A DNA stretch of 26,649 nucleotides from Saprospiraceae bacterium (GTDB lineage Bacteria; Bacteroidota; Bacteroidia; Chitinophagales; Saprospiraceae): contig CANETR010000001.1 in assembly GCA_947441325.1 (NCBI GenBank), positions 1 to 26,649 of the forward strand, read 5' to 3'. A model generated the notes under the pieces. That model saw only the letters and a program-made list of their open reading frames with translations, was not told the DNA's origin and did no database searches. Position 1 is the stretch's first letter. Every line of letters starts with the position of its first letter. Positions 3,745 through 23,685 of the stretch are shown in pieces. The position numbers were made by a program, and so were the translations under genes.

Positions 3745-4107
3745 ATGGACGAAAATGTAGCGAAATACATAGCATCTTTTCCTGATGATATCCAAGAAAA
3801 ATTACTAAAACTAAGAGCATTAATTCTCGAGAATGCAAAAGGAGCTGAAGAGCATTTTGCCTATTCTATGCCTGCATACAGTATTTATAATCGGCCGCTT
3901 CTGTACTATGGGGCTTATAAAAATCATATAGGATTTTACGCTCTGCCAAGTGGACATAAAGCTTTCGAAAAAGAATTTTTAAAATATAAAAGAGGTAAAG
4001 GTTCCGTACAGTTTCCAAATAATGAGGATTTACCACTAGAACTAATCCAAAGGATTGTATTATTCAGGGTCGAAGAAAATTTTCAAAAACGGAATAAAGT
4101 GGAATAA
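3745..4107 (+). CDS. DUF1801 (YdhG-like) domain protein
   Basis: A 120-residue soluble protein with the DUF1801 pattern: an N-terminal helix (YIASFPDDIQEKLLKLRALI), the SMPAYSIYNRPLLYYGAYKNHIGFY core, then a helix with FEKEFLKYKRGKGSVQFP and the closing LPLELIQRIVLFRVEEN. The domain has a frataxin-like fold, and some Bacillus members (YdhG) are called iron chaperones, but most have no assigned role. It starts 4 nt after the permease stop and converges on the degenerate PrsW gene with only 13 nt between stop codons. No terminator is obvious in that gap. Confidence 0.85.
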   Translation: MDENVAKYIASFPDDIQEKLLKLRALILENAKGAEEHFAYSMPAYSIYNRPLLYYGAYKNHIGFYALPSGHKAFEKEFLKYKRGKGSVQFPNNEDLPLELIQRIVLFRVEENFQKRNKVE

Positions 4108-4120
4108 AACACAATGAGTT

Positions 4121-4819
4121 TCACTGCTCATTTGGATACAAATCATTGATTTTGCTGTTATTGCTATCGTTTTGTTCAGCTTTTTGCTGCCTAAGCAAGT
4201 GTGCAGTAAGCATTAAAGTCAAAAAAGAAGTCCCCAACATTAGTACTATTAAATTTGGAAACTGTCTTTCTAAAATAAAAAATTCGTGCAGGCCCTGAAT
4301 TAAAATGATAGAACCTAAGCCAGTATTTAAGTAGGTAAAATTTTGCTTAGCATCCTCCGAAAACTTTGCCATAGAGATAAAATATCCCAATATCATTGAC
4401 ATAGAAATATGTCCCAGAATATTTAAAATATTGATAAGAGGGTATGTTTTTTCATTCATTGTTAAAAATTCGGGCAATACAAAACCAATAGAAATCCATA
4501 CACAATAGATGAGCCCAAAGACTGGCATTTTAAAGTGCCTGCTTGGATAAATCAGTATTTTAATGAATAAAAATACAATTAACTGTCCGCTGAGACCCGT
4601 TGCAAAAAGCGAAAATATAAAATTGAAAATTGGGTCTGACTTATTAATAATTCCAAAATTTATTCCCATTTGCTTCATCTGATCTCCAACTAAAGAAGCA
4701 AGAAACCCAATTAGAATAGCGATTACTATGAGCTTAAGATTCAGTCTAAATCTCAGATGAACAAATAAAAGCGATAATGTTATGGTAAGCAGTATAAAAA
4801 GGGCAATGAATAAAGGCAT
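4121..4819 (-). CDS. Degenerate PrsW-like membrane protein, probably inactive protease paralogue
   Basis: A 232-residue polytopic membrane protein with seven or eight hydrophobic segments. It aligns with the PrsW protein encoded just upstream: 52 consecutive positions match without gaps in spacing (ATGLSGQL... against VVGFSEEF...), including shared IYP/IFP, GLIYCVWISIGF/GIVYSVMISMGF, MILGYFISMAKF/VIMGYFVGKAKF and QGLHEFF/HGLYDFF. The PrsW catalytic pair E81-E82 is G78-Q79 here, and H185 of the HGLYD motif is Q175. D189 becomes E179. Glu117 and His137, the counterparts of E120 and H149, remain. So it keeps the fold but should lack metalloprotease activity. The C-terminal tail (from about 210) is polar and Asn-rich. 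It starts 30 nt after the prsW stop, probably in one operon. A role as a regulator or substrate adaptor of PrsW is inference. I know of no named family for it. Confidence 0.8.
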   Translation of the reverse strand: MPLFIALFILLTITLSLLFVHLRFRLNLKLIVIAILIGFLASLVGDQMKQMGINFGIINKSDPIFNFIFSLFATGLSGQLIVFLFIKILIYPSRHFKMPVFGLIYCVWISIGFVLPEFLTMNEKTYPLINILNILGHISMSMILGYFISMAKFSEDAKQNFTYLNTGLGSIILIQGLHEFFILERQFPNLIVLMLGTSFLTLMLTAHLLRQQKAEQNDSNNSKINDLYPNEQ

Positions 4820-4849
4820 TATTTGGGCTTTTTAGATGCAAGTTTTATA

Positions 4850-5557
4850 TTAAAACCCATCTTCTTTTATTTTGTGTGGAGATTCTTCTACATGCCAGTG
4901 AATCATGTAACGACCTAAGATAATTGCTGCCAAAAGGGTGATAAAAGTAAAAATAGCCAATGATTCGTCCATGCGTTGCATGAGAAAAAAGTCATACAAC
5001 CCGTGAACAAGGGTGGCCAATAATAAACCACTTATCATATAAAAACTTCTGTTATTGGGCAAAAACTTAGCTTTTCCAACAAAATACCCCATTATTACGG
5101 CAAAGGAGGCATGAGCCGGCACGGCGGTTAACATCCTCATATAGGCTAAATTATAAGCTTGTTCGGAGGTTGATTGTCCAAAAACATATAATATATTTTC
5201 GAAGGTCGCAAAGCCCATGCTTATCATTACCGAATATACAATCCCGTCCATTGGCTCACAAAATTCTTTTTTAGGAAAAATGTAATAGCGCAGAAAAAGG
5301 TATTTTGAAAACTCCTCACTGAATCCAACGACAAACACTGCGAAAATAAAGGTTTTAATGACATCTGGCCCATCTTTATAGCCCATCTCCATGCCAATTG
5401 ATTCGAGAATTATAGCAGGAAGAATGCTCAAAATACCAAAAAGGAAGCAGACTATTAAATATTTATGCGGTTCGGGTTCATGCTTATCTCGCCACCAGAT
5501 GTAGTAGCTTATGATAAGTCCCGGAAGTATTGCCAGTGCGAGCAGCGTATAGTCCAT
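4850..5557 (-). CDS. prsW: PrsW-family intramembrane metalloprotease
   Basis: A 235-residue polytopic membrane protease. The PrsW motifs are complete: GFSEEFSKY (E81, E82), FENILY (E120, N121), VPAHASF (H149) and HGLYDF (H185, D189), with the early loop WWRDKHEPEPHKY (about 21-33) that is characteristic of the family. In Bacillus subtilis PrsW makes the site-1 cut of the anti-sigma factor RsiW under envelope stress. In Bacteroidota the substrates are unknown, and no sigma/anti-sigma pair lies in this window. The gene is followed by its degenerate paralogue. Upstream, between 5574 and 5657, sit three identical palindromes, the nearest beginning 16 nt before the ATG, so the gene is probably under a dedicated repressor or activator. 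Confidence 0.9.
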   Translation of the reverse strand: MDYTLLALAILPGLIISYYIWWRDKHEPEPHKYLIVCFLFGILSILPAIILESIGMEMGYKDGPDVIKTFIFAVFVVGFSEEFSKYLFLRYYIFPKKEFCEPMDGIVYSVMISMGFATFENILYVFGQSTSEQAYNLAYMRMLTAVPAHASFAVIMGYFVGKAKFLPNNRSFYMISGLLLATLVHGLYDFFLMQRMDESLAIFTFITLLAAIILGRYMIHWHVEESPHKIKEDGF

Positions 5558-5573
5558 AGTTTTAAGTTTAAGG

Positions 5574-5657
5574 GAAAATATTTTCTTTGAAAAAGGTCAA
5601 TGAAAGTCAACGTGGAAAATATTTTCTATTAAAATGAGTTTATTAGAAAATATTTTC
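5574..5657 (-). promoter_or_regulatory. Array of three 12-bp palindromes (putative operators) upstream of prsW
   Basis: GAAAATATTTTC, a perfect palindrome, occurs at 5574-5585, 5615-5626 and 5646-5657. All three are followed by T, giving RGAAAATATTTTCT, and the third is a perfect 14-bp palindrome. Start-to-start spacings are 41 and 31 bp, close to four and three DNA turns, so the copies would lie on one face of the helix. They fill the leader of prsW and end 49 bp from the polA stop. I did not notice the motif elsewhere in the window. Cooperative binding by a dimeric regulator is the simplest reading; the regulator is not identifiable here. Confidence 0.7.
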
Positions 5658-5706
5658 TACTTAATTATAATTGGTTCAATTGAAGTTCCGTCAATTCACA
5701 AATCGA

Positions 5707-8508
5707 TCAATGTGCTTCCAACCAATTCTCGCCGGTATCAATTCCTACAACAATTGGAACTTTCAGGCCAGGTAGGGCATTTTTCATTGAATTTTCAATA
5801 ATTGTACGAACCTTTTCCAATTCATCTTTTGGCACATCGAATACAAGTTCGTCATGCACCTGCAGAATCAGTTCTGTTTTGAATCCACCACGGTTCAGTT
5901 CATTGTAAATTTTTATCATAGCCAATTTTATCATATCGGCCGCAGAGCCCTGCACAGGTGTATTGATCGCATTACGCTCAGCATGAGAGCGCATCATGCC
6001 ATTGCGTGAGTCAAGATCGCGCAGATAACGGCGGCGTCCGCAGATTGTCGTTACATAGCCATTTTTCCGGGCCTCATGTACCACATCTTCCATGTACTTT
6101 TTCAAACCACTGTATTGATCAAAATATTGCTTTATAAGCTCCGATGCCTCTGCTCTTTTTATGCCAAGCTGTTGCGAAAGTAACATAGCGCCTGCACCAT
6201 AAATTATGGAGAAGTTCACCGTTTTGGCATTATAACGCTGTTCTTTTGTCACTGACTCGAGCGGAACACCATAAATTTTTGCGGCAGTAGCCTGATGGAT
6301 ATCATGTCCGTGACGGAAGGCATCGAGCATAGCTTCTTCACCACTTAGTTCGGCTATAAGGCGCAATTCAATCTGCGAATAGTCGGCGGCAAGCAGCACA
6401 TAATCTTTACTTCGGGGTATAAATGCCTTTCTTACTTCGCGTCCGGCTTCACTTCTAATGGGGATATTCTGCAGATTAGGATTGTTAGAACTTAGTCTAC
6501 CTGTATTGGTGAGTGCCTGATTGAAAGAGCTGTGAAGGCGAGCGCTGTGCTTGTTCACCAATCGTGGAAGAGCATCGATATAGGTCGATTTCAATTTGGT
6601 CAGCTGTCTGTACTCCAAAATTCTTTCAACTACGGGATATTTTGTGGCAAGTTCAGACATAACTTCCTCATCTGTACTGTACTGACCTGTTTTGGTTTTT
6701 TTCCATCGGTAAGGAATTTTCATTTTATCGAAAAGTACATCACCAATTTGCTTTGGCGAATCGAGGTTCAACCAAGGCGTTTCTGCAGTTTCGAGAATTT
6801 CTTTTCGTAGGACTTCTATATCTTTTTCGATCTTCAAGCTGTAATCGGCCAAAAAAGGAGTGTCCAGATTTACGCCATTCCATTCCATATCGGCCAATAC
6901 TTTGATTAGTGGCTCTTCTATTTCAAGATAAAGCTTTCGAAGTTCACCTGCTAAAATTCCATCCAATTTCTGTTTCAATTGCCAGGTGATATCGGCATCC
7001 TCGGCAGCATATTCCTTCAATTTTTCGAGCGGAACATCGCGCATGGTGATTTTTTTCTTGGCTCCTTTGCCTAACAAGTTTTCGATTGGAACAGGAGAAT
7101 AGCCCAGATAGCTCTCGGCCAGATAGTCCATGCCATGTCTTTGGTCTGGCTCAAGAATATAGTGCATAATCATGGTGTCCCAAATCCTTCCCTTTACTTC
7201 GATACCATACCAACGAAGCACCAACATATCGAATTTAAGATTTTGCCCGATTTTGTCGATGTTTTCATTTTCGAAAAGTGGTCGGAACAATTCAAGATAA
7301 GCCTTTGTTTTTTCCTGATTATCTGGAAAAACTACAAAATATGCCTCTTGTGCCTCGATAGAAAAAGAAATGCCAACCAATTCAGAGCCTATTTCCAATC
7401 CGGTAGTTTCGGTATCGAAACAAATTTCTTTTTGCGAGGAAAGTAATTTTACCAGGCCTTTCATTTTGTCTTCATTATCGACAAGATGGTATTTATGTGG
7501 CGTATTTTCAACAGTTTTGTTAACCAAATGAGCATTTGCTGCCATCGATACCTTTTTCTCGGGCTGTTCAATTACGTTGCCGAATAAATCAGTCTGAACC
7601 GGGGCATCGCTGTCGCTGTTTTCTAATGCGCCTATATCTTTACCTAAGATTTTCTTTGCCAGAGAACGGAATTCCAATTCCCTAAACAGTTCTGTTAATA
7701 GCTCTTTGTTGATAGGGTCAATCTGATAAACGGTCGAGTCGAATTGTATGGGCACTTCGGTGTCAATTCTTGCCAATTTTTTTGATAGTAACGCAATTTC
7801 TTTATTTTCAAGCATTTGAATGCGTTGCTTCTCGGGCAGTTCGGCTGCGTTTTCAATTATACCCTCAATTGAATCATATTTTTCAATCAGTATTTGAGCA
7901 GTTTTGGGCCCGATTCCTTTTACGCCTGGAATATTATCTACTGCATCACCCTGCAGACCAAGCATATCTACCACCTGTTCGACTCTTTTTATACCCCAGG
8001 TAGCGCAGATGTCTTCTTTTTTCAATAACTCCACCTCATTGCCCATTCTACCAGGCTTGTAAAGGAATATATTATCGGAAACCAATTGTCCGTAGTCCTT
8101 GTCAGAGGTTATCATGTACACTTCAAATCCTTCATTCTCTGCTTGTTTTGCCAAAGTTCCAATGACATCGTCCGCCTCATACCCCTTGCAGCTAACAACA
8201 GGGATGTTCATGGCCTCTATAATTTTTTTGATGTAAGGGGTTCCAATAGTAATATCTTCAGGCTGTTCATCACGGTGAGCCTTGTAGGGTTCGTACATGT
8301 CATGTCTGAAAGTTGGTCCTGAAAGATCAAATGCAACCGCAATATGTGTGGGTTTTTCATTTTGAATAACATCCCATATTAGAGAAGTGAAGCCATTTAC
8401 ACAGGAAACATTCACGCCTTTTGAGTTGATTAGTGGCCTTTTAATAAAAGCAAAATGTGCTCTGTATATAAGCGCGTATGCGTCGAGGAGAAATAATTTT
8501 TTTGACAT
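5707..8508 (-). CDS. polA: DNA polymerase I
   Basis: A 933-residue, full-length family A polymerase for Okazaki-fragment maturation and excision repair. The 5' nuclease domain (about 1-290) has YEADDVIGTLA with D113 and D114 and the helix-hairpin-helix GVKGIGPKTA. The 3'-5' proofreading domain (about 340-530) looks active: FDTETTG (D365, E367), NLKFDMLVL and YAAEDADIT (Exo III). The polymerase domain has motif A LAADYSQIELR (D709), motif B RYNAKTVNFSIIYG and motif C LQVHDELVF (H885, D886). Many Bacillus and Thermus enzymes have lost proofreading, so its retention here is worth recording. The start is the ATG at 8508. It is divergent from the DUF2461 gene and followed by the prsW operon after 149 nt, with no clear terminator between. 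Confidence 0.98.
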   Translation of the reverse strand: MSKKLFLLDAYALIYRAHFAFIKRPLINSKGVNVSCVNGFTSLIWDVIQNEKPTHIAVAFDLSGPTFRHDMYEPYKAHRDEQPEDITIGTPYIKKIIEAMNIPVVSCKGYEADDVIGTLAKQAENEGFEVYMITSDKDYGQLVSDNIFLYKPGRMGNEVELLKKEDICATWGIKRVEQVVDMLGLQGDAVDNIPGVKGIGPKTAQILIEKYDSIEGIIENAAELPEKQRIQMLENKEIALLSKKLARIDTEVPIQFDSTVYQIDPINKELLTELFRELEFRSLAKKILGKDIGALENSDSDAPVQTDLFGNVIEQPEKKVSMAANAHLVNKTVENTPHKYHLVDNEDKMKGLVKLLSSQKEICFDTETTGLEIGSELVGISFSIEAQEAYFVVFPDNQEKTKAYLELFRPLFENENIDKIGQNLKFDMLVLRWYGIEVKGRIWDTMIMHYILEPDQRHGMDYLAESYLGYSPVPIENLLGKGAKKKITMRDVPLEKLKEYAAEDADITWQLKQKLDGILAGELRKLYLEIEEPLIKVLADMEWNGVNLDTPFLADYSLKIEKDIEVLRKEILETAETPWLNLDSPKQIGDVLFDKMKIPYRWKKTKTGQYSTDEEVMSELATKYPVVERILEYRQLTKLKSTYIDALPRLVNKHSARLHSSFNQALTNTGRLSSNNPNLQNIPIRSEAGREVRKAFIPRSKDYVLLAADYSQIELRLIAELSGEEAMLDAFRHGHDIHQATAAKIYGVPLESVTKEQRYNAKTVNFSIIYGAGAMLLSQQLGIKRAEASELIKQYFDQYSGLKKYMEDVVHEARKNGYVTTICGRRRYLRDLDSRNGMMRSHAERNAINTPVQGSAADMIKLAMIKIYNELNRGGFKTELILQVHDELVFDVPKDELEKVRTIIENSMKNALPGLKVPIVVGIDTGENWLEAH

Positions 8509-10153: not shown

Positions 10154-11416
10154 TTAGCCCCGTTTCTTGGTATTAAATTTCTTGGCCTCACCAAAATCGA
10201 AGATAAGAGAGAAGCGTAGGGTATTATCCAATGGGTTGCGCTGAGCCGCAATAGCCGGTATCAGATAAGAGAAATTGATATTAAAAATATTGTACCTGAT
10301 GCCCAAACCAACGGTGAAAAACTTTCGGTTACCCTTGGTTCTGTGTTCATTGTAATGGCCGAAACGGACGGCAAACTGTTTATTGTACCAGTATTCCATA
10401 CCGATAGAGTACATCAACTCACGCATTTCCTCTCCAAACCCGCCGGCAGCATCTCCAAATGATGAGAATATGGAAGCAGGTACTGATTTTTCTTTGTAAT
10501 CAGGAATTCCATTTCCATCTGCATCATATTCTGGATTAGGAATAAGATTTCCTTGTCCGTCGTCCATGCTACGAGGTATTGGTGTAGGAACTAGAAGCTT
10601 ATTGACATCAATTGCAAAGGTGAACGAGTTGTAATTGTCAAAATTATATTCAAAGGCAGTTCCAAAACCTAAATTGGCTGGAATATAGTCCTTGTTTGCA
10701 GAACGGGTATAAGAAATTTTTGAACCCAGATTGGAGAAAACCAAACCGAAATTAAGGTTAGCTTTTTTTTCTGCAATGACTAATGGTAAACGGTAAGTGA
10801 AGGATACATCTGCAGCAAAAGCGTTTGCAGGTGTAAGCACGTCGCCATTAACAGCACCGGTTCCCAAAGAAGAAAAAATATATTTCAATGCCAGTGAGGT
10901 AGAGAAATTTTCAGACATTTTTCTGGAATAGGCAAATGCTAGTTCCAATTCACGAGGGCGAACTACCTGCAGCGGATTTCCCTGATCATCTGTATATTGA
11001 ATCTGCCCCAATGAAAAATAACGAAGCGATCCTCCAAGGGTCTGTCTGTCATCGATATGTTTGTAAGCTGAGAGATAAGCCAAAAAGACATCATTCAGTC
11101 CCAAGGCACGCAACCAAGGGGTATAAGTAGCCGACACACTAAAATCTTTTGCACCGAATGAAAGATTCGATGAATTGAAATGCATGGAATTGGGATCGGG
11201 GTCAACAGCGATGCCAACATCCCCCATAGCGCCAAAACGCGCATCAGGTATGATCCGTAAAAATGGAACGGCAGTAATGATGGTATTGGAACAAGGGCTG
11301 CCATCGGGCTGAATTAACTGCCCATTTGAAAGAATACACTGTGCTTCAATTTTTCCATTGAAAGCCGAAACCAAAACTGCCAGTAAAGCACAAGCTTTAT
11401 AAAACCGTAAGCTCAT
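10154..11416 (-). CDS. porV: T9SS outer-membrane protein PorV (LptO)
   Basis: PorV is the outer-membrane barrel that collects T9SS cargo from the SprA translocon and delivers it to the sortase PorU at the cell surface. The 420-residue protein starts at the ATG at 11416 with a signal peptide (ALLAVLVSAFNGKIEAQ). It then shows the PorV pattern: ITAVPFLRIIPDARFGAMGDVGIA, DPDPNSMHFNSSNL, and a FadL-like series of beta strands ending FNINFSYLIPA and LRFSLIFDFG. An extracellular-loop insertion (about 305-335) contains DADGNGIPDYKE, a calcium-binding-type Asp-rich stretch. It lies downstream of porU on the same strand with a 153-nt gap, the same pairing as in Flavobacterium johnsoniae. TAACTTTG on the minus strand at 11494-11501 could be its own -7 box. 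Confidence 0.95.
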   Translation of the reverse strand: MSLRFYKACALLAVLVSAFNGKIEAQCILSNGQLIQPDGSPCSNTIITAVPFLRIIPDARFGAMGDVGIAVDPDPNSMHFNSSNLSFGAKDFSVSATYTPWLRALGLNDVFLAYLSAYKHIDDRQTLGGSLRYFSLGQIQYTDDQGNPLQVVRPRELELAFAYSRKMSENFSTSLALKYIFSSLGTGAVNGDVLTPANAFAADVSFTYRLPLVIAEKKANLNFGLVFSNLGSKISYTRSANKDYIPANLGFGTAFEYNFDNYNSFTFAIDVNKLLVPTPIPRSMDDGQGNLIPNPEYDADGNGIPDYKEKSVPASIFSSFGDAAGGFGEEMRELMYSIGMEYWYNKQFAVRFGHYNEHRTKGNRKFFTVGLGIRYNIFNINFSYLIPAIAAQRNPLDNTLRFSLIFDFGEAKKFNTKKRG

Positions 11417-11569
11417 AAATAAGTAGGTCAGAATCAATAAATTAAATACTAGTGTATAGTTCCTGTCATAGATTACTAAAAAATCGTAGAAGGCAAAGTT
11501 ACAAAATAAAGTTATAAAGTTATTTTTATTTATAGTTGCAGCCAAAAATATTTTAAATGCTTAATAATA

Positions 11570-14500
11570 TTATTTGAGAATTACTAATTTCTGGTACTCA
11601 CTGTTCTTTTGAATTTTAGGAGATTCGCTGCCTGCAGCTGCTGGTCCTGTAGCTCTCACAGTTACTTTGTACACATACACACCACGACCCAAGCGATCGC
11701 CATATTCATCCAAACCATCCCATTCAATTCCGCGTACTCTAAAACCGTCATTTTCGGCCGAACTGAGATCGCTGCTGATGCTCTTGACCAATTTACCTGA
11801 AACGGTGTATATTTGAATCAGCACCTCAAGTTCCTGCCCAGGCAGATTGTGCTCAAACATAAATTCGGTATGCGTTGTAAATGGATTGGGATAATTGAGC
11901 ACCTGTGCTAATGCCATTTTCTCATCAGAAGCAACAATAAATTCAGTGCTGCCCTCGCCCATATTATTAAATACATCCCAGGCTTTCACTTTTACGGTGT
12001 GTTTACCAACAGGAAGTTTTTGCAGCGGATAATTAATCCTGCCCAATCTAAAATTATCTAGCTCGGCTTCGTAAAAATCATTCAGATTATATGTTTTATC
12101 CGATTCATCTTGAGTAAAGGTCAATATTCCTGTCAGGTCATGTCCAATTCCATTCCCTACGGTATTAATACCGCTACTATCGCTCAGTTTTACCAAAAGA
12201 AGTGGGTTTTCGTCGGTTAATCCGCCTGAGGCAAAGTTTTCATTGTTCATAAATACCTTTACTTCTGGACCAATGTTATCGCTTATGCTGTTATTACTTG
12301 TACCACCTATGTAGAGACCTCTGTAAGTTCCATGTGCGTCAAGATTCGAACCGTTTTCGGCATAATAATAGATTTTTCCTCTACCCATGTTGTAGTTAAT
12401 ATCTCTGGGAACATAGAATGAAAAACTGAATCGTCCGTTTGCAACTGTAGCGCGACCCTTAAAAATAATTTTTTTCTGAAGTGGAAATTTGGTAATATAG
12501 CTTCCTGCATCATTTCCGCGTGTTTGAATCGTATCGTGTTTATCGAAAACTGTAGGATAAACTGTACCATTAAAATTGTTCATCAAATTTCCGTTCTGAT
12601 CTTGAATTTCACCTTGTATAGTTACAAATTGAAGGGCACCTATAGTGTCATTGCCGTTTACGGGGTTGCCGTTTATAAGGGTAGTAACTACTCTTTCCTC
12701 CGGATAAGCCAAGGTTTGTGAGGGGTCGCCCAAAAGTACAAATTTTCTCGAGTTGGAGGCCGATTGCAATCCACTTGTATTTTTGGCAAAAAGAAGTACC
12801 TCACCAAGGCGGGGGTATCTGCCTTCAATAGGACTGAAAATATAGTTAAAAGTATTTCTTGTCAGGTGCTCGTTTGCATCAGCAAGAACAACCCTAACAG
12901 TGGTAAGCATGGCGATTGCACCACCAGCCGGATTCAATAAAAGCAATTCTGCAGCACTTATAGATTCAGGATCATCAAATGGTGCAAAGGAGCAGGTTGC
13001 TGTTATGAAAAGTGGCAACTTGTTTTCATTATCCAGCGTATTTATCTCAGAAGTTGTAAAAATACGCTCCTGAGCCAAGCCATCGGGACCACCGTGACCT
13101 AAGTAACACATGAGCAGATTACCTTTAAAGATATTTCTCAGAAGAGCAGCGTTTACATCGGGATATCGGCTGCCTCCTGCTGTACTCACCTGTGGATAAG
13201 CATCGCAATAAATCTTATCGATGTTATAAACCGTGTCTCTGCCTGCAACTATTTGCGCAATATTTTCAGTGTCATCTAAGTGTAGATTACCGTCTTCGTC
13301 ATCTGCAAAAAAGGTAAGTCTGCTGCGCCAATCACCAAAGCCTTCAACCTGAGTGTCATAGTTGACGATTTTCGTCACAACTGCTTCAGCTTCAGTTGCA
13401 CTGGAAACGGGAATGCGACCGACAGCCAGGTCCATCAGACTGCTTTGTTCGAGGTTACCTTCGCCATCATCCATAAGCGCAAAGTAATCATCGGTTGTAT
13501 AAGTTTTTAAGGGATCGATGGACTGTTCTGTTTCGTAAGCTAGAATATAATTATTGTTTCGGCTACGCGCGCTGTTGTTGCCTTTGTAATCGAATGAACC
13601 ATTGCCAAATAGTAAAAGATACCTCAGCGAATCGTTGCCCGAAGAGCGGTCATAGAGCATTTTAGCAAAGTCTCTAACGGCGCTAACATCAGGATGCCCT
13701 GATGAGAATTCATTGTAAACCTGGTCTACATCCACAGCGATTACAGAAATACTACTGTGGCTTGCACGGTGGGCTGCAAGTCTTTCGGCGGCTGATTGAA
13801 AATCACGGTGATAAACAATCAATAAATTAGGAGAAGCTGTAATTCCGTGTAGGTTTTGATTGGCAACCGCACCTACAGCAGTAGGAATGGAGTAATTACT
13901 GCCATCGAAAATTACGAAATTGCGAAGCGTATCTGCATCAACATTGAAGCTGATATTGCCCGTTCCTGAGTAGGATTGATTGACTACTTCGAATGGATTT
14001 GTAACATCCCAGACTGTGTTGTTGCCTGCGTTGCTAATTTGATAGTTCACTGTCCCTTTGCCAATTGTCTCCGCATCACGAAAACTCATTTGCCCTCCGG
14101 TAAAAGCAAGTTGGCAACGCGCATTCACAGTAATATAATCCAGCCAGGCCTCGGCAGTGGAGCTACTGTTGTTGTATTGAAGTTCAATATTCAAACTATT
14201 ACCGGATGCGCTTGTAGTGCTAAGATTTTCAAGTTTTCTGGCATAGGTAGAATAAATATAGTTATTAACAGTTTGAACGGCAGAACTAAAAAGATTTGTG
14301 CCATTTAGTTTTCCATCGAAGGATCCAGATGTAAAAGTTCTGCTATATAGAACACTATTTATCTTTACAGGCTCAGCATCAATTCTGTTGTTAAAATTAA
14401 AACCGAAGCTCTGATTTCGACTGATTTGGAAAGGATTACCCAACCAGAGTCTTCCACTGGGAGGTAGCGCAAATTCCTTTTCCATCAGGTTTAGGCTGTT

Positions 14501-15463
14501 TACTTCGAAATGTTGCAAAGCATCGTATGCGCTTGAGCTGTATAGGGCGCTTGGCAGCGAAGCCCTGTTGCTAATTCTTTTGCCGGGAGCAGATGCAATT
14601 TTTATGAAATAAGATATTTCGTCTGTGTAGATATTCTCTGTTCGGTTATAAAAACCTGTACTGCTATTATAATTCCAGGAATCCTTTCCCGCTGCATAAA
14701 ATAGAATAAAATCGGAACTGTTGAATTGACCATCAGATTCTCCCTGTATAAAAACGGCATTCTCTTCCAGGTCATCAATTTTGTTGGCTGCTCCTACGGT
14801 TTCTGGTAGTATTTTACCACCATTACCTAGCAACTGAATGTTTCGGGGATCGATATTGTCAACGTCAACACCTAAGGATGATAGTAGTTGATAATCAATT
14901 TTATAAATGCCGCTATTGCCTACTTTTATTTTATAAATTTGTCCATCATTAAGTTTAGAAAGGGTACTGCTGGATTTTCTTACAAAGTTCGAATTGGCCT
15001 CTGTGTCAATGCTAAAAATATTCAAATCTGCACTTATCAATCTTTCAAACTGACCAGTTTCTTTGTTTTTTCTTAGAGGTATAAAATTTATCTGAGCACT
15101 TGGACGACCTTTTTCCGCACTTATATTAATAATGAATTCTATCTCATTTTTTATGAATTGCTGTCCCCAATCCAGTGTTGAATTTATATTTTCGAAAACT
15201 GGGTTAGAAAGCTCAATTCTTATGTCAGAAGCACGGCTTAGTTGAATTTTCTCACTTTTTATTGGCATCATTTCCGATTCATCGAATGCAGCCCCCTCAA
15301 ATGACAAAAAGTGTAACCTGCCCAGTCCTTCATTCGAAAGCGTATCGGGGCTTTTTTTCCAATTCAGATTAAGCGTTTTGCGAGCAATCAGGTTACCTTG
15401 AGCAAAAACAAGTTGCTGTGTTAAGAAAACAAAAATGAGTATAAAAGATATTTTGTAGGACAT
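11570..15463 (-). CDS. porU: T9SS sortase PorU (peptidase C25 family)
   Basis: PorU is the cell-surface cysteine sortase that cleaves the C-terminal signal of T9SS cargo and links it to A-LPS. The 1297-residue protein has a signal peptide (ILIFVFLTQQLVFAQ), a large beta-rich N-terminal region, and a gingipain-like peptidase C25 domain at about 545-900. The catalytic His is in CYLGHGGPDG (H790) and the catalytic Cys in ITATCSFAPFDDP (C824). The C-terminus (from about 1195) is a FlgD-like beta domain with LNYPNPF and GRGVYVYKV. This length matches PorU of F. johnsoniae and P. gingivalis. The start is the ATG at 15463. A promoter with -33 and -7 boxes lies at 15589-15619. porV follows on the same strand. 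Confidence 0.96.
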   Translation of the reverse strand: MSYKISFILIFVFLTQQLVFAQGNLIARKTLNLNWKKSPDTLSNEGLGRLHFLSFEGAAFDESEMMPIKSEKIQLSRASDIRIELSNPVFENINSTLDWGQQFIKNEIEFIINISAEKGRPSAQINFIPLRKNKETGQFERLISADLNIFSIDTEANSNFVRKSSSTLSKLNDGQIYKIKVGNSGIYKIDYQLLSSLGVDVDNIDPRNIQLLGNGGKILPETVGAANKIDDLEENAVFIQGESDGQFNSSDFILFYAAGKDSWNYNSSTGFYNRTENIYTDEISYFIKIASAPGKRISNRASLPSALYSSSAYDALQHFEVNSLNLMEKEFALPPSGRLWLGNPFQISRNQSFGFNFNNRIDAEPVKINSVLYSRTFTSGSFDGKLNGTNLFSSAVQTVNNYIYSTYARKLENLSTTSASGNSLNIELQYNNSSSTAEAWLDYITVNARCQLAFTGGQMSFRDAETIGKGTVNYQISNAGNNTVWDVTNPFEVVNQSYSGTGNISFNVDADTLRNFVIFDGSNYSIPTAVGAVANQNLHGITASPNLLIVYHRDFQSAAERLAAHRASHSSISVIAVDVDQVYNEFSSGHPDVSAVRDFAKMLYDRSSGNDSLRYLLLFGNGSFDYKGNNSARSRNNNYILAYETEQSIDPLKTYTTDDYFALMDDGEGNLEQSSLMDLAVGRIPVSSATEAEAVVTKIVNYDTQVEGFGDWRSRLTFFADDEDGNLHLDDTENIAQIVAGRDTVYNIDKIYCDAYPQVSTAGGSRYPDVNAALLRNIFKGNLLMCYLGHGGPDGLAQERIFTTSEINTLDNENKLPLFITATCSFAPFDDPESISAAELLLLNPAGGAIAMLTTVRVVLADANEHLTRNTFNYIFSPIEGRYPRLGEVLLFAKNTSGLQSASNSRKFVLLGDPSQTLAYPEERVVTTLINGNPVNGNDTIGALQFVTIQGEIQDQNGNLMNNFNGTVYPTVFDKHDTIQTRGNDAGSYITKFPLQKKIIFKGRATVANGRFSFSFYVPRDINYNMGRGKIYYYAENGSNLDAHGTYRGLYIGGTSNNSISDNIGPEVKVFMNNENFASGGLTDENPLLLVKLSDSSGINTVGNGIGHDLTGILTFTQDESDKTYNLNDFYEAELDNFRLGRINYPLQKLPVGKHTVKVKAWDVFNNMGEGSTEFIVASDEKMALAQVLNYPNPFTTHTEFMFEHNLPGQELEVLIQIYTVSGKLVKSISSDLSSAENDGFRVRGIEWDGLDEYGDRLGRGVYVYKVTVRATGPAAAGSESPKIQKNSEYQKLVILK

Positions 15464-15588
15464 AAAGTACAGTTTGGAAATATTCGATCAGTGACCTGAA
15501 AGATGAGCTAATCAAATGGTTTAAATCAGATAACCTTTCTAAAGAATTATTGTTTGATAGGTCGAAACAATTTTTAATTCATATTCTG

Positions 15589-15619
15589 CAAATATAAGAA
15601 TGAGAAAAGCGCTTAGCAA
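15589..15619 (-). promoter_or_regulatory. Promoter of porU (-7 TATATTTG, -33 TTG)
   Basis: On the minus strand TTG (15619-15617) is followed by exactly 20 nt and then TATATTTG (15596-15589), a full match to the Bacteroidota housekeeping promoter TTG-N19/20-TAnnTTTG. The implied leader is about 120 nt. Confidence 0.6.
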
Positions 15620-15700
15620 TTATTTCTTTGAAAATTGATTAAAAATTATCCGTTTGAGAAAAAAAATCGGGTACATTATATTAATGCCTGATAATTAATC

Positions 15701-15708
15701 TATTTTTG
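15701..15708 (+). promoter_or_regulatory. Probable -7 box of the porP/sprF-family gene
   Basis: TATTTTTG matches TAnnTTTG and lies 61 nt before the ATG at 15770. The upstream TTG is not at ideal spacing. Confidence 0.4.
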
Positions 15709-15769
15709 GACATCATTTTGAATAATTACTTCGTTAGAGTAAAACGATTCAGAAGATAAAAGTGTTGGC

Positions 15770-16789
15770 ATGAGAGCTTATTTAATGACAGATTTAAAGA
15801 AAATAGTAACGATATGGGCGTTTTTGCTCACATCTTTATCAGTTTGGGCGCAGGATCCTGTGTTCAGTCAGTTTTTTGCCGCTCCGCTTCAATTAAATCC
15901 AGCACTTAGTGGAACATCAGAAGCGCCAACCATTCATTTAAATTACAGGAATCAGTGGCCATTACTTTCTCAGGCCTATGCTACTTATGCAGCCTCTTAC
16001 AGTCAGTTAGCGCCAAAACTCAACAGTGGTTTTGGACTTTCTTTAATGTCAGATGTAGCTGGTAATGGTATTTACAATTCAACTCAGATAGGTTTTGCTT
16101 ATGCCTATAACCTACAATTTCAAAAAGACCTCTATTTGAGAATGGGGCTTGAGTCTAATTTCGTCAGCAAACGACTTTCCTGGGATAAATTAATCTTTCT
16201 TGATCAGTTAAATGTTGAGACCGGTGCATTCGATGCCAATGGTAACATAAATCCAACTTTTGAAACTCAGCCTAATTTAAACATCAATTATTTCGATTTC
16301 GGGTTTGGCGCCTTATTTTACAGTAAATACGTTTATGGTGGGTTTGCGCTCAAACATATTAATTCACCCAGAGAAGCCCTCATCAGACCAAATGCACAAT
16401 ATGATGAACTGCCAATGAGAATTAGCTTTCATGCAGGCGGACAAATTCCTGTATCGAAAAACAATAAATACAAAACGGCTACGTTTATATCTCCAAATAT
16501 ACTCTTTACCAAGCAGCGACAGTTCAAACAACTCAATATTGGTTCCTATATTCAACACGAATCTTTTTTTGGGGGAATTTGGTTCAGACATACTTTTACC
16601 AATAGCGACGCCGTTATATTGATGGCAGGTTATGAACTTAACTTTCTAAAAATTGCGTACAGCTACGATTTAACTGTCTCAAATTTGGGTGTTAACTCGG
16701 GAGGAGCACATGAAATTTCATTGATTTTTAACTTTAAAACAAAAAACAAAGGAACAAATTATAACGATTGTTTAAATTTATTTAGATAA
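15770..16789 (+). CDS. T9SS membrane protein, PorP/SprF family
   Basis: PorP/SprF proteins are outer-membrane barrels linked to T9SS; SprF is needed to secrete the adhesin SprB in F. johnsoniae, and PorP works with the PorK-PorN ring. This 339-residue protein has a signal peptide ending at SVWAQ, then the family signature QDPVFSQFFAAPLQLNPALSGT and NYRNQWP (about 27-61). Further hallmarks are the strand GFGLSLMSDVAGNGIYNSTQIGFAYAYN and the tail AYSYDLTVSNLG with GGAHEISLIFNF. The ATG at 15770 is used; an ATG at 15785 (five residues later) gives an equally good signal peptide. It stands between porU and gldJ. Bacteroidota often carry many paralogues, so porP cannot be told from sprF without comparison to the gldKLMN locus, which is not here. 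Confidence 0.92.
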   Translation: MRAYLMTDLKKIVTIWAFLLTSLSVWAQDPVFSQFFAAPLQLNPALSGTSEAPTIHLNYRNQWPLLSQAYATYAASYSQLAPKLNSGFGLSLMSDVAGNGIYNSTQIGFAYAYNLQFQKDLYLRMGLESNFVSKRLSWDKLIFLDQLNVETGAFDANGNINPTFETQPNLNINYFDFGFGALFYSKYVYGGFALKHINSPREALIRPNAQYDELPMRISFHAGGQIPVSKNNKYKTATFISPNILFTKQRQFKQLNIGSYIQHESFFGGIWFRHTFTNSDAVILMAGYELNFLKIAYSYDLTVSNLGVNSGGAHEISLIFNFKTKNKGTNYNDCLNLFR

Positions 16790-16803
16790 TCACAAATAAT
16801 TTC

Positions 16804-16811
16804 TATTTTTG
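16804..16811 (+). promoter_or_regulatory. Probable -7 box of gldJ
   Basis: TATTTTTG lies 14 nt after the stop of the preceding gene and 37 nt before the gldJ ATG at 16849. This suggests gldJ has its own start site besides any read-through. No -33 TTG stands at the ideal distance. Confidence 0.45.
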
Positions 16812-16848
16812 CGCAAGCCTTTTATTCAATAAAAAAAATTGCTTTCAG

Positions 16849-18390
16849 ATGAAAAAAATAATTTTGTTCGCGTTGGCTAGTTTGTTGATTGCCGCAACAT
16901 CCTGCAAAAAACGCGAAGAGCGCTCAAAAACAACCGGTTGGGGTTTCAACTCTCAGCAATGGGGAGGTTTTGAAAAACCACTGGACTACAAAGGTCAAAT
17001 GACTGGTCCAAACCTGGTTTTCATTGAAACAGGTACCTTTAATATGGGTATGACAGAAGAAGATGTAATGTCTGATTACAGAAATATTGCCCGTCGCGTT
17101 ACAGTTTCGGCATTTTATATGGATGAGACTGAAATTTCTAACCTCGATTGGTTAGAGTATATGCACTTCCTTATCCGTGTGTATCCAGAAATGCCACAAA
17201 TTTACATGCAGGCACTTCCTGATACTTTAGTATGGTTGGAAGAACTTTCATACAATGAACCATTTGTTGAAACATACTTACGTCACCCAGCTTATATGGA
17301 TTATCCTGTTGTTGGTGTGAACTGGCTTCAGGCGCAGGAATACTGCAAATGGCGTGGAGACCGTGTAAATGAAATGATTTTGATTGAGCAGGGTAAAGTT
17401 GATCCTACCTCTATCGAAGGACAACAGGGTGAAAATACTTTCAGCACTGGTTCATACCTTGCTGGACTATATGAGGCACAACCCGGTCCAAAACCAATGG
17501 TAAGTCCTACAGATGGTCAAGAGCGTCGTGTTCGTTTTGAAGACGGTATTCTTCTTCCTTCTTATCGCCTTCCAACAGAAGCTGAATGGGAATTTGCAGC
17601 ACTTGCACTCATTGGCAATCAAAGCTATTCAAAAGATGAGCGTATCACAGACCGCCGTATTTATCCTTGGAATGGAACAACTACCCGCTATCCAATGCAT
17701 GGTCGTTCACAAGGTTTGATGGTGGCTAACTTTAAACGTGGTCGTGGTGACTATATGGGTATGGCTGGTGCATTGAACGATAATGCACACATTACTGCAC
17801 CTGTACGTTCTTATGTGCCAAATGATTATGGTCTGTTCAATATGGCTGGTAACGTAAATGAGTGGGTTCAGGACGTGTATCGCCCAATGACATCTACTTC
17901 ATTACGTGATGTTGAAACACAGGATTTGAACTCTTTCCGTGGTAACGTATTCACTCAAATTGAGCGTGACGCTGATGGAAATCCTGTTGGTCGCGATAGC
18001 TTAGGCCGTTTGAAATACAAGGCACTTGATGATGAGCAAATCGCAGGTCGTCAAAACTTCCAAAAATCAAATGTTATCAACTATTTGGATGGTGATCAAC
18101 AATCTCGTTTGAACTATTCTGAATTGGATGATCAGACGAAACACATGTACGAGTTCGGAAAGCACTCACTCATTTCTGACAAAGCACGCGTAATCAAAGG
18201 TGGTTCATGGGCAGATAGAGCATATTGGCTTTCTCCAGGAGCGCGTCGCTTCATGGACGAGGACAAAGCTGCTTCTACAGTTGGTTTCCGTTGTGCAATG
18301 ACCCGCGTAGGTTCGCCAAAAGGAAATAGACTTCCTGGCGGAAATCAGATAAAAACAGGTAAACCAAATACCAGACGTACTTATAGATAG
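16849..18390 (+). CDS. gldJ: Gliding-motility / T9SS lipoprotein GldJ
   Basis: A 513-residue lipoprotein: the signal peptide ends in the lipobox AATSC (Cys19), followed by KKREE. The rest is a formylglycine-generating-enzyme (FGE/SUMF1) fold with GTFNMGM, FYMDETEISNLDWLEY, YPVVGVNWLQAQEYCKWRGDR, LPTEAEWEFAALAL, NDYGLFNMAGNVNEWVQDVY and the final KGGSWADRAYWLSPGARRF...TVGFRCAM. GldK shares this fold, but the SKTTGWGFN start, the YNEPFVETYLRHP segment and the position beside porU-porV match GldJ; in F. johnsoniae gldJ neighbours porU and porV, while gldK heads gldKLMN. GldJ is needed for gliding and for stability of GldK and so for T9SS function. CGT and GGT codons dominate, suggesting high expression. 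A GAAA-loop terminator follows. Confidence 0.9.
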   Translation: MKKIILFALASLLIAATSCKKREERSKTTGWGFNSQQWGGFEKPLDYKGQMTGPNLVFIETGTFNMGMTEEDVMSDYRNIARRVTVSAFYMDETEISNLDWLEYMHFLIRVYPEMPQIYMQALPDTLVWLEELSYNEPFVETYLRHPAYMDYPVVGVNWLQAQEYCKWRGDRVNEMILIEQGKVDPTSIEGQQGENTFSTGSYLAGLYEAQPGPKPMVSPTDGQERRVRFEDGILLPSYRLPTEAEWEFAALALIGNQSYSKDERITDRRIYPWNGTTTRYPMHGRSQGLMVANFKRGRGDYMGMAGALNDNAHITAPVRSYVPNDYGLFNMAGNVNEWVQDVYRPMTSTSLRDVETQDLNSFRGNVFTQIERDADGNPVGRDSLGRLKYKALDDEQIAGRQNFQKSNVINYLDGDQQSRLNYSELDDQTKHMYEFGKHSLISDKARVIKGGSWADRAYWLSPGARRFMDEDKAASTVGFRCAMTRVGSPKGNRLPGGNQIKTGKPNTRRTYR

Positions 18391-21739: not shown

Positions 21740-22597
21740 ATGAAAAATTTGTTCGCTCTGTTGCTTATTTTACTGTTCGGTGCAACAGTATGCAATAATG
21801 CAGTTTCTGCACAGGATTATTCTGGCAATCAACTTTTGGCTTTTCAGGATGCTAAAGACACAACAAAGTCTGAAACACAAGCTGAGCCTGTAAAGGAAGA
21901 TACTAAAGCCGAAGAACCTAAAAAAGAAGAAGACAAACCAAAGACTACTTTTTACCAAATGGTGAAAAAGTACTACATCGATGGTGGTTGGGAATTTATG
22001 TCATTGGTATTAATTACCTTGATTTTTGGTCTAGCCGTAGCAATTGAGCGTGTAATCACACTCAGTTTAGCTACAGTAAACACTAGAAAATTATTGGGTA
22101 AAATTGAAGATCACGTAAAGAATGGTGACATCGAAGGTGCACGTGAGCTTTGTCTTGCAACATCTGGTCCTACTGCTGAAGTTCTTGGCGAAGGTCTTCG
22201 TCGTGTTGATGATGGTATTGATGCCGTTGAAAAGGCAATTGTTTCTAACGGAAGTGTACAGGTAGGTCTTTTGGAAAAAGGTCTTGTATGGTTAGCGCTC
22301 TTTATCGCACTTGCACCGATGCTCGGGTTCTTGGGTACGGTTATTGGTATGATCTTCGCCTTCGATACAATCCAGGCTTCTGGTGATATCAAGCCTGATG
22401 AAGTTGCGGGTGGTATCAAAATCGCTTTGATCACGACTGTATTTGGTCTTATCGTTGCGATGATTCTACAAATTTTCTACAACTTGATTACCTCTAAAGT
22501 TGACACCCTTACCAATAAAATGGAGGATGCAACTATCAGCATGATCGATATTCTAATCGATAACGGTTATGCCAACGGTAGACCTCAGTCAAAATAA
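21740..22597 (+). CDS. exbB: MotA/TolQ/ExbB proton-channel protein
   Basis: The 285-residue ExbB-type stator forms the proton channel that powers TonB- or Tol-type envelope work. After a cleavable-looking signal peptide (ends NAVSAQ) comes a 50-residue Lys/Glu-rich periplasmic stretch, then three TM helices (about 85-105, 180-205, 227-250). The family signature LAPMLGFLGTVIGM, with conserved Thr200, and the last-helix Thr233 in ALITTVFGLIVA are present. The charged periplasmic N-terminus is common in Bacteroidota ExbB and absent from E. coli ExbB. It heads an operon with a four-TM protein and two ExbD proteins. GldL also uses a proton motor but looks different, with two TM helices. The tRNA-Ser ends 96 nt upstream. 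Confidence 0.93.
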   Translation: MKNLFALLLILLFGATVCNNAVSAQDYSGNQLLAFQDAKDTTKSETQAEPVKEDTKAEEPKKEEDKPKTTFYQMVKKYYIDGGWEFMSLVLITLIFGLAVAIERVITLSLATVNTRKLLGKIEDHVKNGDIEGARELCLATSGPTAEVLGEGLRRVDDGIDAVEKAIVSNGSVQVGLLEKGLVWLALFIALAPMLGFLGTVIGMIFAFDTIQASGDIKPDEVAGGIKIALITTVFGLIVAMILQIFYNLITSKVDTLTNKMEDATISMIDILIDNGYANGRPQSK

Positions 22598-23121: not shown

Positions 23122-23685
23122 ATGGCAGATAGAAAAATTCCGGAAATCAATGCCGGTTCGATGGCCGATATTGCGTTCCTTCTTTTGGTGTTCTTTCTTG
23201 TTACCACTACTATTCAGACAGATGCGGGTCTTTATCAGCTTCTGCCACAATGGGTAGAAGAGGAGAGTACTGCTGAACCACCTAAGAAGAATAAAAAGAA
23301 CGTAATGCAGGTTAAGATTACTGCCTCAGATCAAGTGATTGTTGAAGCAGGTAAACAGCCAGCACAAATCAATTTCGATGTACTCAGCCTCAAAGATAGA
23401 ACTATCGAGTTTTTGACCAATAACGGCAAAACGGAAGATCTATCAGAGAAGCCTACCATGGCAGTTATTGTATTGCAAAATGACAACGGTACTTCATATG
23501 ACAAATATCTGAGTGTACTCAATGAATTAAATGCAGCATACAATACGATTTGGAATCAGGCTTCCAAAGATAAATTTGCTGTGGCCTATGATGCGCTGAC
23601 TAAAGAACAACAGGAAGAAATTAAGATGAAATATCCTAAATTCCTGTCTGAAGCCGACGCAACCGACTTTGATAAGAAAAAATAG
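23122..23685 (+). CDS. exbD: ExbD/TolR-family protein 1
   Basis: A 187-residue ExbD-like protein: a short cytoplasmic start (MADRKIPEINAGSM), one TM helix (ADIAFLLLVFFLVTTT) with the proton-carrying Asp16, then a periplasmic domain. The periplasmic part is longer than in E. coli ExbD (141 residues in total). It includes an insertion near LTNNGKTEDLSEKPTMAVIVLQND and a charged C-terminal extension from about 150 (DALTKEQQEEIKMKYP...). It begins 1 nt after the four-TM gene and is followed by a second ExbD after 42 nt. Two different ExbD subunits could form a heterodimer inside the ExbB pentamer; that is inference. Confidence 0.9.
   Translation: MADRKIPEINAGSMADIAFLLLVFFLVTTTIQTDAGLYQLLPQWVEEESTAEPPKKNKKNVMQVKITASDQVIVEAGKQPAQINFDVLSLKDRTIEFLTNNGKTEDLSEKPTMAVIVLQNDNGTSYDKYLSVLNELNAAYNTIWNQASKDKFAVAYDALTKEQQEEIKMKYPKFLSEADATDFDKKK

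Follow-up and report, generated by a model that had tools for sequence, protein, structure and literature searches.

What could be the role of a protein that has retained the frame of an intramembrane protease but not its catalytic residues, and whose gene directly follows that of an intact member of the same family? This question is raised by a locus of a Saprospiraceae bacterium, contained in a stretch of 26,649 nucleotides that was analysed as a whole and that we refer to as the window. PrsW proteases are widespread and, to our knowledge, little is known about their regulation and about whether they act alone or in assemblies. On the reverse strand of the window, the region 4850–5557 encodes an intact PrsW-family intramembrane protease of 235 residues (PrsW-A), which matches the family profile PF13367 with an E-value of 2.6e-41 and contains all motif residues (E81-E82-x-x-K85, E120-N121, H149 and H185-x-x-x-D189). 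As claimed in an earlier note on this DNA and borne out by the coordinates of the reading frames, a second, co-directional gene at 4121–4819, coding for a protein of 232 residues, starts 30 nucleotides behind the stop of prsW (spacer 4820–4849, reverse strand). Since the spacer is short and the strand is shared, both genes are likely part of a single transcript. The second protein is termed pseudoprotease or dead copy, an assignment that is based on its match to PF13367, pairwise BLASTP, profile comparison by hhalign and the loss of motif 1. Its gene is convergent with that of a DUF1801 protein on the forward strand (3745–4107; PF08818, E 6e-17), which served as a synteny marker, and 5' of prsW an intergenic region on the reverse strand (5558–5706) extends to the end of polA at 5707. 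Elsewhere in the window, genes for type IX secretion are found at 10154–18390, which encode PorV, a C25 peptidase with a weakly matched C-terminal sorting domain, PorP/SprF and an FGE-sulfatase-domain protein. We take the peptidase to be PorU-like, and the FGE-sulfatase-domain protein is presumably GldK-like. A gene of the MotA/TolQ/ExbB type (21740–22597) is located near one of the ExbD/TolR type (23122–23685).

The product of the gene at 4121–4819 is a homologue of PrsW by descent. In a pairwise BLASTP comparison it aligns with PrsW-A at an E-value of 3e-24, with 28% identity across 207 aligned positions, and the ungapped segment encompassing motifs 1 and 2, which had previously been put at about 52 residues, extends over 91 (positions 29–119 of the second protein). 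The match to a PrsW profile, which had been proposed as a check, turned out to be significant. The pseudoprotease scores 36.2 bits against PF13367 (E 6e-9), above the gathering cut-off of 23.5 and compared to 141.8 bits for PrsW-A, and hhalign relates the profile of the pseudoprotease family to the PrsW profile with a probability of 99.7% (E 3.5e-27) over 194 columns that include all four motif regions. A chance resemblance between hydrophobic proteins was considered and is rejected, as the Smith-Waterman score of 229 obtained for the pair lies far beyond the values of shuffles in blocks of eight residues (at most 96, n=1000), of class-preserving shuffles (at most 75, n=1000) and of two further membrane proteins encoded in the window (43 and 38). 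The NCBIfam model NF033739 does not discriminate between dead and live proteins, because the intact PrsW-A (148.2 bits) misses its equivalog cut-off of 225 as does the pseudoprotease (30.8 bits). In a search for a solved structure of PrsW, the PrsW sequence profile returned no match at E-values up to 1.

A study on PrsW of B. subtilis lists the motifs E75-E76-xx-K79, F110xxxE114, H138 and H175xxxD/N179 and reports a functional importance for the E75A/E76A double change or H175A (PMC12943098). The pairwise alignment confirmed that G78-Q79 of the pseudoprotease face E81-E82 of PrsW-A and that Q175 faces H185, both of which had been noticed before. The equivalent regions of the window copy read G78-Q79-x-x-V82 (motif 1), E117 (motif 2), H137 (motif 3) and Q175-x-x-H178-E179 (motif 4), with the motif-2 Glu (facing E120) and the motif-3 His (facing H149) being retained. 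Throughout the related dead copies, the EExxK signature of motif 1 is absent, as none of the 16 distinct sequences spanning this region contains E81, E82 or K85 and the acidic pair is replaced by GQ, AQ, MQ or MH. Similarly, the His of motif 4 is found in none of the 17 distinct sequences, with the column being unreliable in the short P0017. Counted by rows, the HxxxD signature is missing in all 19 (18 with Gln and one, the unreliable P0017, with Arg), and its Asp is changed to Glu in all 18 rows that have a letter at this position. At motif 2 (FxxxE), 12 of 18 lettered rows contain Glu and six, constituting the subgroup of a second genome with the pair (G004), contain Arg, while the subsequent Asn is found in none of the 18; at motif 3, His is present in 13 of 19 rows and Gln in six, with duplicates counted in both cases. 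Because motifs 1 and 4 are replaced, the described active site of PrsW is absent from the dead copy. In the other PrsW rows, E81, E82, K85, E120, N121, H149 and H185 are kept in 154 out of 154 cases, a set with few duplicates that combines the best 120 of 5828 matches to the intact PrsW with 34 proteins from related whole genomes, and which by virtue of the former, the nearest relatives, leans to enzymes resembling PrsW-A. Across all fetched loci, 54 of 58 distinct PrsW-like frames (at least 150 codons, profile E ≤1e-10) show the full motif set and one (L030) has an Asn for the last Asp, whereas the remaining three rows are the dead copy of the window, present twice and once cut, and that of G004.

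The dead clade is also distinguished by residues of its own. All 15 rows counted share the fixed changes of E82 to Q, H185 to Q and D189 to E, and 14 of them have H in place of Y188; in the numbering of the window copy the new residues H178 and E179 are present in 14 and 15 of 15 rows, in counts that omit P0016, which is without motif 1, and P0017, which has a His at the position of E82, and that are inflated by several rows being near-copies. With the same 15 of 17 sequences counted and the same inflation, 48 columns are conserved to at least 93% in the dead clade with a residue other than the commonest one in PrsW, many of which are also variable within PrsW. Clade-specific residues of the window copy include N59, N66, C106, W108, H178, E179, E184, Q186 and N189. 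Together with the retained E117 and H137, the novel H178-E179 might be taken as a rearranged active site, with the second protein still acting as a protease. The conservation of the motif-2 Glu and the motif-3 His in the subgroup of the window and the prevalence of H178 and E179 would be in line with this idea, which is however difficult to reconcile with the Arg and Gln found at the motif-2 and motif-3 sites of the G004 subgroup and with the replacement, throughout the dead clade, of the sites needed in PrsW of B. subtilis. We thus regard continued proteolysis by this protein as highly doubtful.

Two successive searches, each among 5.8 billion proteins, have recovered 11 and 16 members of the dead clade, the window's own among them, and inclusion of the G004 copy brings their number to at least 17 distinct sequences, 12 of at least 225 residues and five of 110–194 residues. 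This is a lower bound because scoring in the second search was restricted to the 8000 candidates with the largest number of shared words. The member P0017 has a length of 148 residues and a divergent end, which perhaps reflects a frameshift or an assembly error. In a phylogenetic tree containing 15 dead rows among 49, the dead copies form one clade with a support of 100/100 on a long stem, although the placement of some of these rows is unsure as a consequence of their odd letter composition and the long stem. In AU tests, a position as sister to PrsW-A of G004 and of the window's genome (G000), to all PrsW-A, or to PrsW-B was in no case rejected (p 0.325, 0.369 and 0.118, respectively), and the branch uniting the dead clade with all PrsWs of the genus shows weak support (76/47). 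An origin of the dead copy from PrsW-A by local tandem duplication is plausible.

Between G000 and G004, the dead copies differ with a dN of 0.44 and a near-saturated dS of 2.66, corresponding to a ratio of about 0.17, in an estimate that relates to one genome pair. The respective values for PrsW-A are 0.17 and 2.43; the dN of the dead copy is about 2.6 times that of PrsW-A, and the identities amount to 47% vs 77%, a faster evolution that could also reflect weak constraint or an unrelated new role. Since its dN is well below dS, the dead copy is constrained. It is under purifying selection and, with its fixed catalytic loss, shows the two properties that define a functional pseudoenzyme. A duplicate in the process of pseudogenization would equally be characterized by the loss of key residues and a low score against PF13367, and it would account for the five short relatives and the divergent end of P0017 (several of these sequences being from short contigs). 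Such decay is nevertheless very unlikely, to the extent of being barely credible, in light of the 12 relatives of at least 225 residues, the single clade, the fixed positions and a dN well under dS, with purifying selection largely contradicting it. One of the outcomes that the earlier note had named as contrary to its interpretation, a decaying copy seen in one genome, did not apply, as the copies form a single clade with fixed losses and the gene order is the same in a second genome.

This second genome with the pair, G004, is a MAG labelled Saprospira grandis (contig CAMDAB010000026.1) and the sole further record found in a scan of genome contigs. Window and G004 have in common the gene order NTP-transferase, SIS, amino-acid permease, DUF1801 (L044 15335–15703 in G004), pseudoprotease and PrsW-A. 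In G004, the chosen ATG of the pseudoprotease is located 32 nucleotides past the PrsW stop, and PrsW-A is truncated by the end of the contig. The amino-acid permease is contained in a single frame in the window and in two in G004 (L044 13985–14272 and 14303–15331). The adjacency of the pair was thus read for two of the 17 dead-clade proteins, those of these two genomes. Conceivably, the dead copy has a job of its own, such as the binding of a ligand or a peptide in the membrane, in which case its proximity to prsW would be a relic of tandem duplication. Its faster evolution compared to PrsW-A and its many clade-specific conserved residues would be compatible with such a role, as would the properties of the convergent DUF1801 neighbour, which with 51% identity between G000 and G004 evolves at about the pace of the pseudoprotease, compared to 79–90% in four other neighbours. 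It speaks against this idea that, although the pseudoproteases of G000 and G004 share just 47% of their residues, the two genes have remained close neighbours with the same order and orientation in both genomes, and we consider this explanation as possible but rather unlikely.

Within the genus Saprospira, the dead copy is found in two of six genomes (G000, which is 63% complete, and G004), whereas the remaining four contain two intact PrsWs in tandem instead. One of these four encodes a protein identical to P0049 of Saprospira grandis DSM 2844. Two intact PrsWs with abutting genes are also found in a genome of another genus (G103), the five intact tandems being located at L045 7013–8505, L046 7709–9159, L047 7123–8615, L048 5789–7230 and L069 713–2191. 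In a quick tree with SH-aLRT as the only support measure, one member of each tandem belongs to a group B (21 rows, support 99). The partner proteins (A) do not group together, so that descent of all tandems from one ancestral pair of intact PrsWs is not evident from this tree. A further PrsW of G004, on the contig that carries the pair but at a distance from it, belongs to group B. The equal size of the contigs within each of the pairs P0037/P0042, P0039/P0044 and P0097/P0111 hints at further tandems.

On a broader scale, a profile of the dead copy (A2) scored 431 bits in G000, 340 in G004 and at most 102 elsewhere among 398 sampled genomes of the family, 111 of which were matched at E ≤1e-5, with the residues being read in those matches that became loci. 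Among 395 sampled genomes of the class, five were matched at E ≤1e-15 with no further dead copy, and the matches besides the own genome (L091–L094) have all motifs complete. PF13367 matched 84 of 395 sampled genomes of the phylum, where no adjacent pair was found beyond the one of the window, except for two pieces of one split gene (G448), and 167 of the 398 genomes of the family, where the adjacent pairs among the matches listed were those of G001, G002, G003, G005 and G103. Strongly diverged dead partners elsewhere would escape PF13367, since this profile does not match the dead copy of G004 at E ≤0.1, despite the 47–50% identity of this protein to the window copy. The survey of Bacteroidota that had been suggested earlier has provided a mixed result, with a consistent loss of the Glu pair and an order kept in a second genome, but with the pair found in one genus only, as sampled. 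As far as sampled, the combination of a dead and a live PrsW is confined to one lineage and is not a property of Bacteroidota at large.

A feature that concerns the potential control of both genes is located between polA and prsW, where the palindrome GAAAATATTTTC is found in three exact copies, at 5574–5585 (nearest to prsW), 5615–5626 and 5646–5657, with a spacing of 41 and 31 nucleotides. If one mismatch is permitted, the window contains five instances vs 0.57 expected, the three exact ones all residing upstream of prsW. The copy nearest to prsW lies within a stop-free stretch in the prsW frame, 5' of the first possible start codon. In the G000 genome, exact copies are found in nine places, including the three upstream of prsW, compared to two for a reversed control pattern. 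A regulon defined by GAAAATATTTTC was considered and none was found, as the other six genomic copies appear to be coding, five being contained in long reading frames and the sixth (L090), where no reading frame of 80 codons covers the palindrome, coinciding on manual reading with the end of a gene. The palindrome is absent from the examined regions upstream of prsW in four other Saprospira genomes, the corresponding region of G004 being cut off. It is possible that the three copies constitute an operator of the two-gene unit.

The comparison to known systems places the pair into a wider context. The protease partner of APH-1, presenilin, is a member of another family, whereas the neighbour of the pseudoprotease in the window is an intact homologue; iRhoms are not known to be encoded in tandem with the active enzyme, and the partners of SpoIVFB are not known to be degenerate copies of this protease. 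By analogy, APH-1 and the iRhoms would be the nearest precedents of the window pair. APH-1 is reported to be a relative of CAAX/PrsW proteases with motif 1 altered to QExxR that is found inside gamma-secretase, and it would thus resemble the dead copy as a degenerate superfamily member in a larger intramembrane protease (PMC6588880, PMC4602095). It differs in being eukaryotic and distant and in keeping one Glu and two His, and its QExxR motif (PMC6588880) is not found in motif 1 of the dead clade. The iRhoms, which have evolved extra domains, are described as inactive relatives of rhomboids with regulatory roles (PMC6451368), a likeness to the dead copy that extends across families, as rhomboids are serine proteases. 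SpoIVFB, a bacterial intramembrane protease, is reported to be held by the membrane partners BofA and SpoIVFA (PMC9042235). A physical pairing of two PrsW-like units has been described for PH0065 of Pyrococcus horikoshii, where PrsW is fused to DUF2324, another PrsW-like domain. This protein is archaeal and a single polypeptide of which neither unit is called dead in the source passage (PMC3482391). The dead copy belongs to the same family as PrsW itself (B. subtilis YpdC; PF13367), the site-1 protease of RsiW, with which it can be aligned over the mentioned 194 columns and from which it is distinguished by xQxx[VQ] for EExxK and a sequence of the QxxHE type for HxxxD. The previous assertion that no such pair had been described stands insofar as no description of a PrsW pseudoprotease was recognised in the accessible parts of the open-licence literature searched, and it requires qualification with respect to APH-1 and the Pyrococcus PrsW fusion, which are akin (PMC6588880, PMC3482391). 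The kind of protein is known from APH-1 and the iRhoms, whereas a dead PrsW encoded behind a live PrsW is, as far as we have seen, new.

Judged from sequence comparison, we find it somewhat probable that the pseudoprotease is a non-catalytic partner of the adjacent PrsW-A, which is kept by selection and controls cleavage. This explanation is preferred since the PrsW frame is kept, since catalysis is lost throughout the clade and since an active PrsW adjoins. As selection keeps the gene intact, its product is probably not junk but has a function as partner or regulator, and a pairing of the proteins becomes somewhat likelier by the presence of PrsW genes in tandem in other members of the family. 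The initial interpretation as a pair of an active protease and a pseudoprotease holds with respect to an intact PrsW with a conserved degenerate paralogue adjoining it, whereas we infer the working partnership. In the proposed course of events, PrsW would have been duplicated and one copy would have lost its catalytic activity, most simply once and before the sampled lineage diversified. Selection would then have preserved this copy, in which new residues became fixed. The dead copy would share an mRNA with PrsW-A, reside beside it in the inner membrane and might set when or what PrsW-A cuts, either by governing the access of substrate helices or via the stability of the enzyme. As a special case, it might act as a dominant inhibitor, which captures the substrate or fills the cleft of PrsW-A until a signal is received, in a manner that would resemble BofA in its interaction with SpoIVFB. 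The location of its gene directly behind the one of the enzyme would be consistent with this mode of action, as would the inhibition by a partner that is known for the intramembrane protease SpoIVFB (PMC9042235). The analogy would be loosened in that BofA is not known to be a homologue of its protease. We consider such dominant inhibition unlikely and, because it is a special case of the non-catalytic partner, its likelihood is contained in that assigned to the latter.

An extension of the proposed role of the dead copy as non-catalytic partner concerns the family in this group of bacteria, where PrsW may act as heteromer, formed by the products of intact tandems in relatives and including a dead subunit in the lineage of the window, a view that is tentative and in our estimate improbable, the more so as the second members of the intact tandems do not group together. 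If true, a heteromeric PrsW would be the bacterial counterpart of a gamma-secretase-like assembly that is derived from one protease family. A dead partner encoded in a two-gene unit would provide a small and testable system for the control of glutamic intramembrane proteases, and the pair may offer a prokaryotic comparison for how APH-1, which belongs to this superfamily as well, turned into a subunit without catalytic activity.
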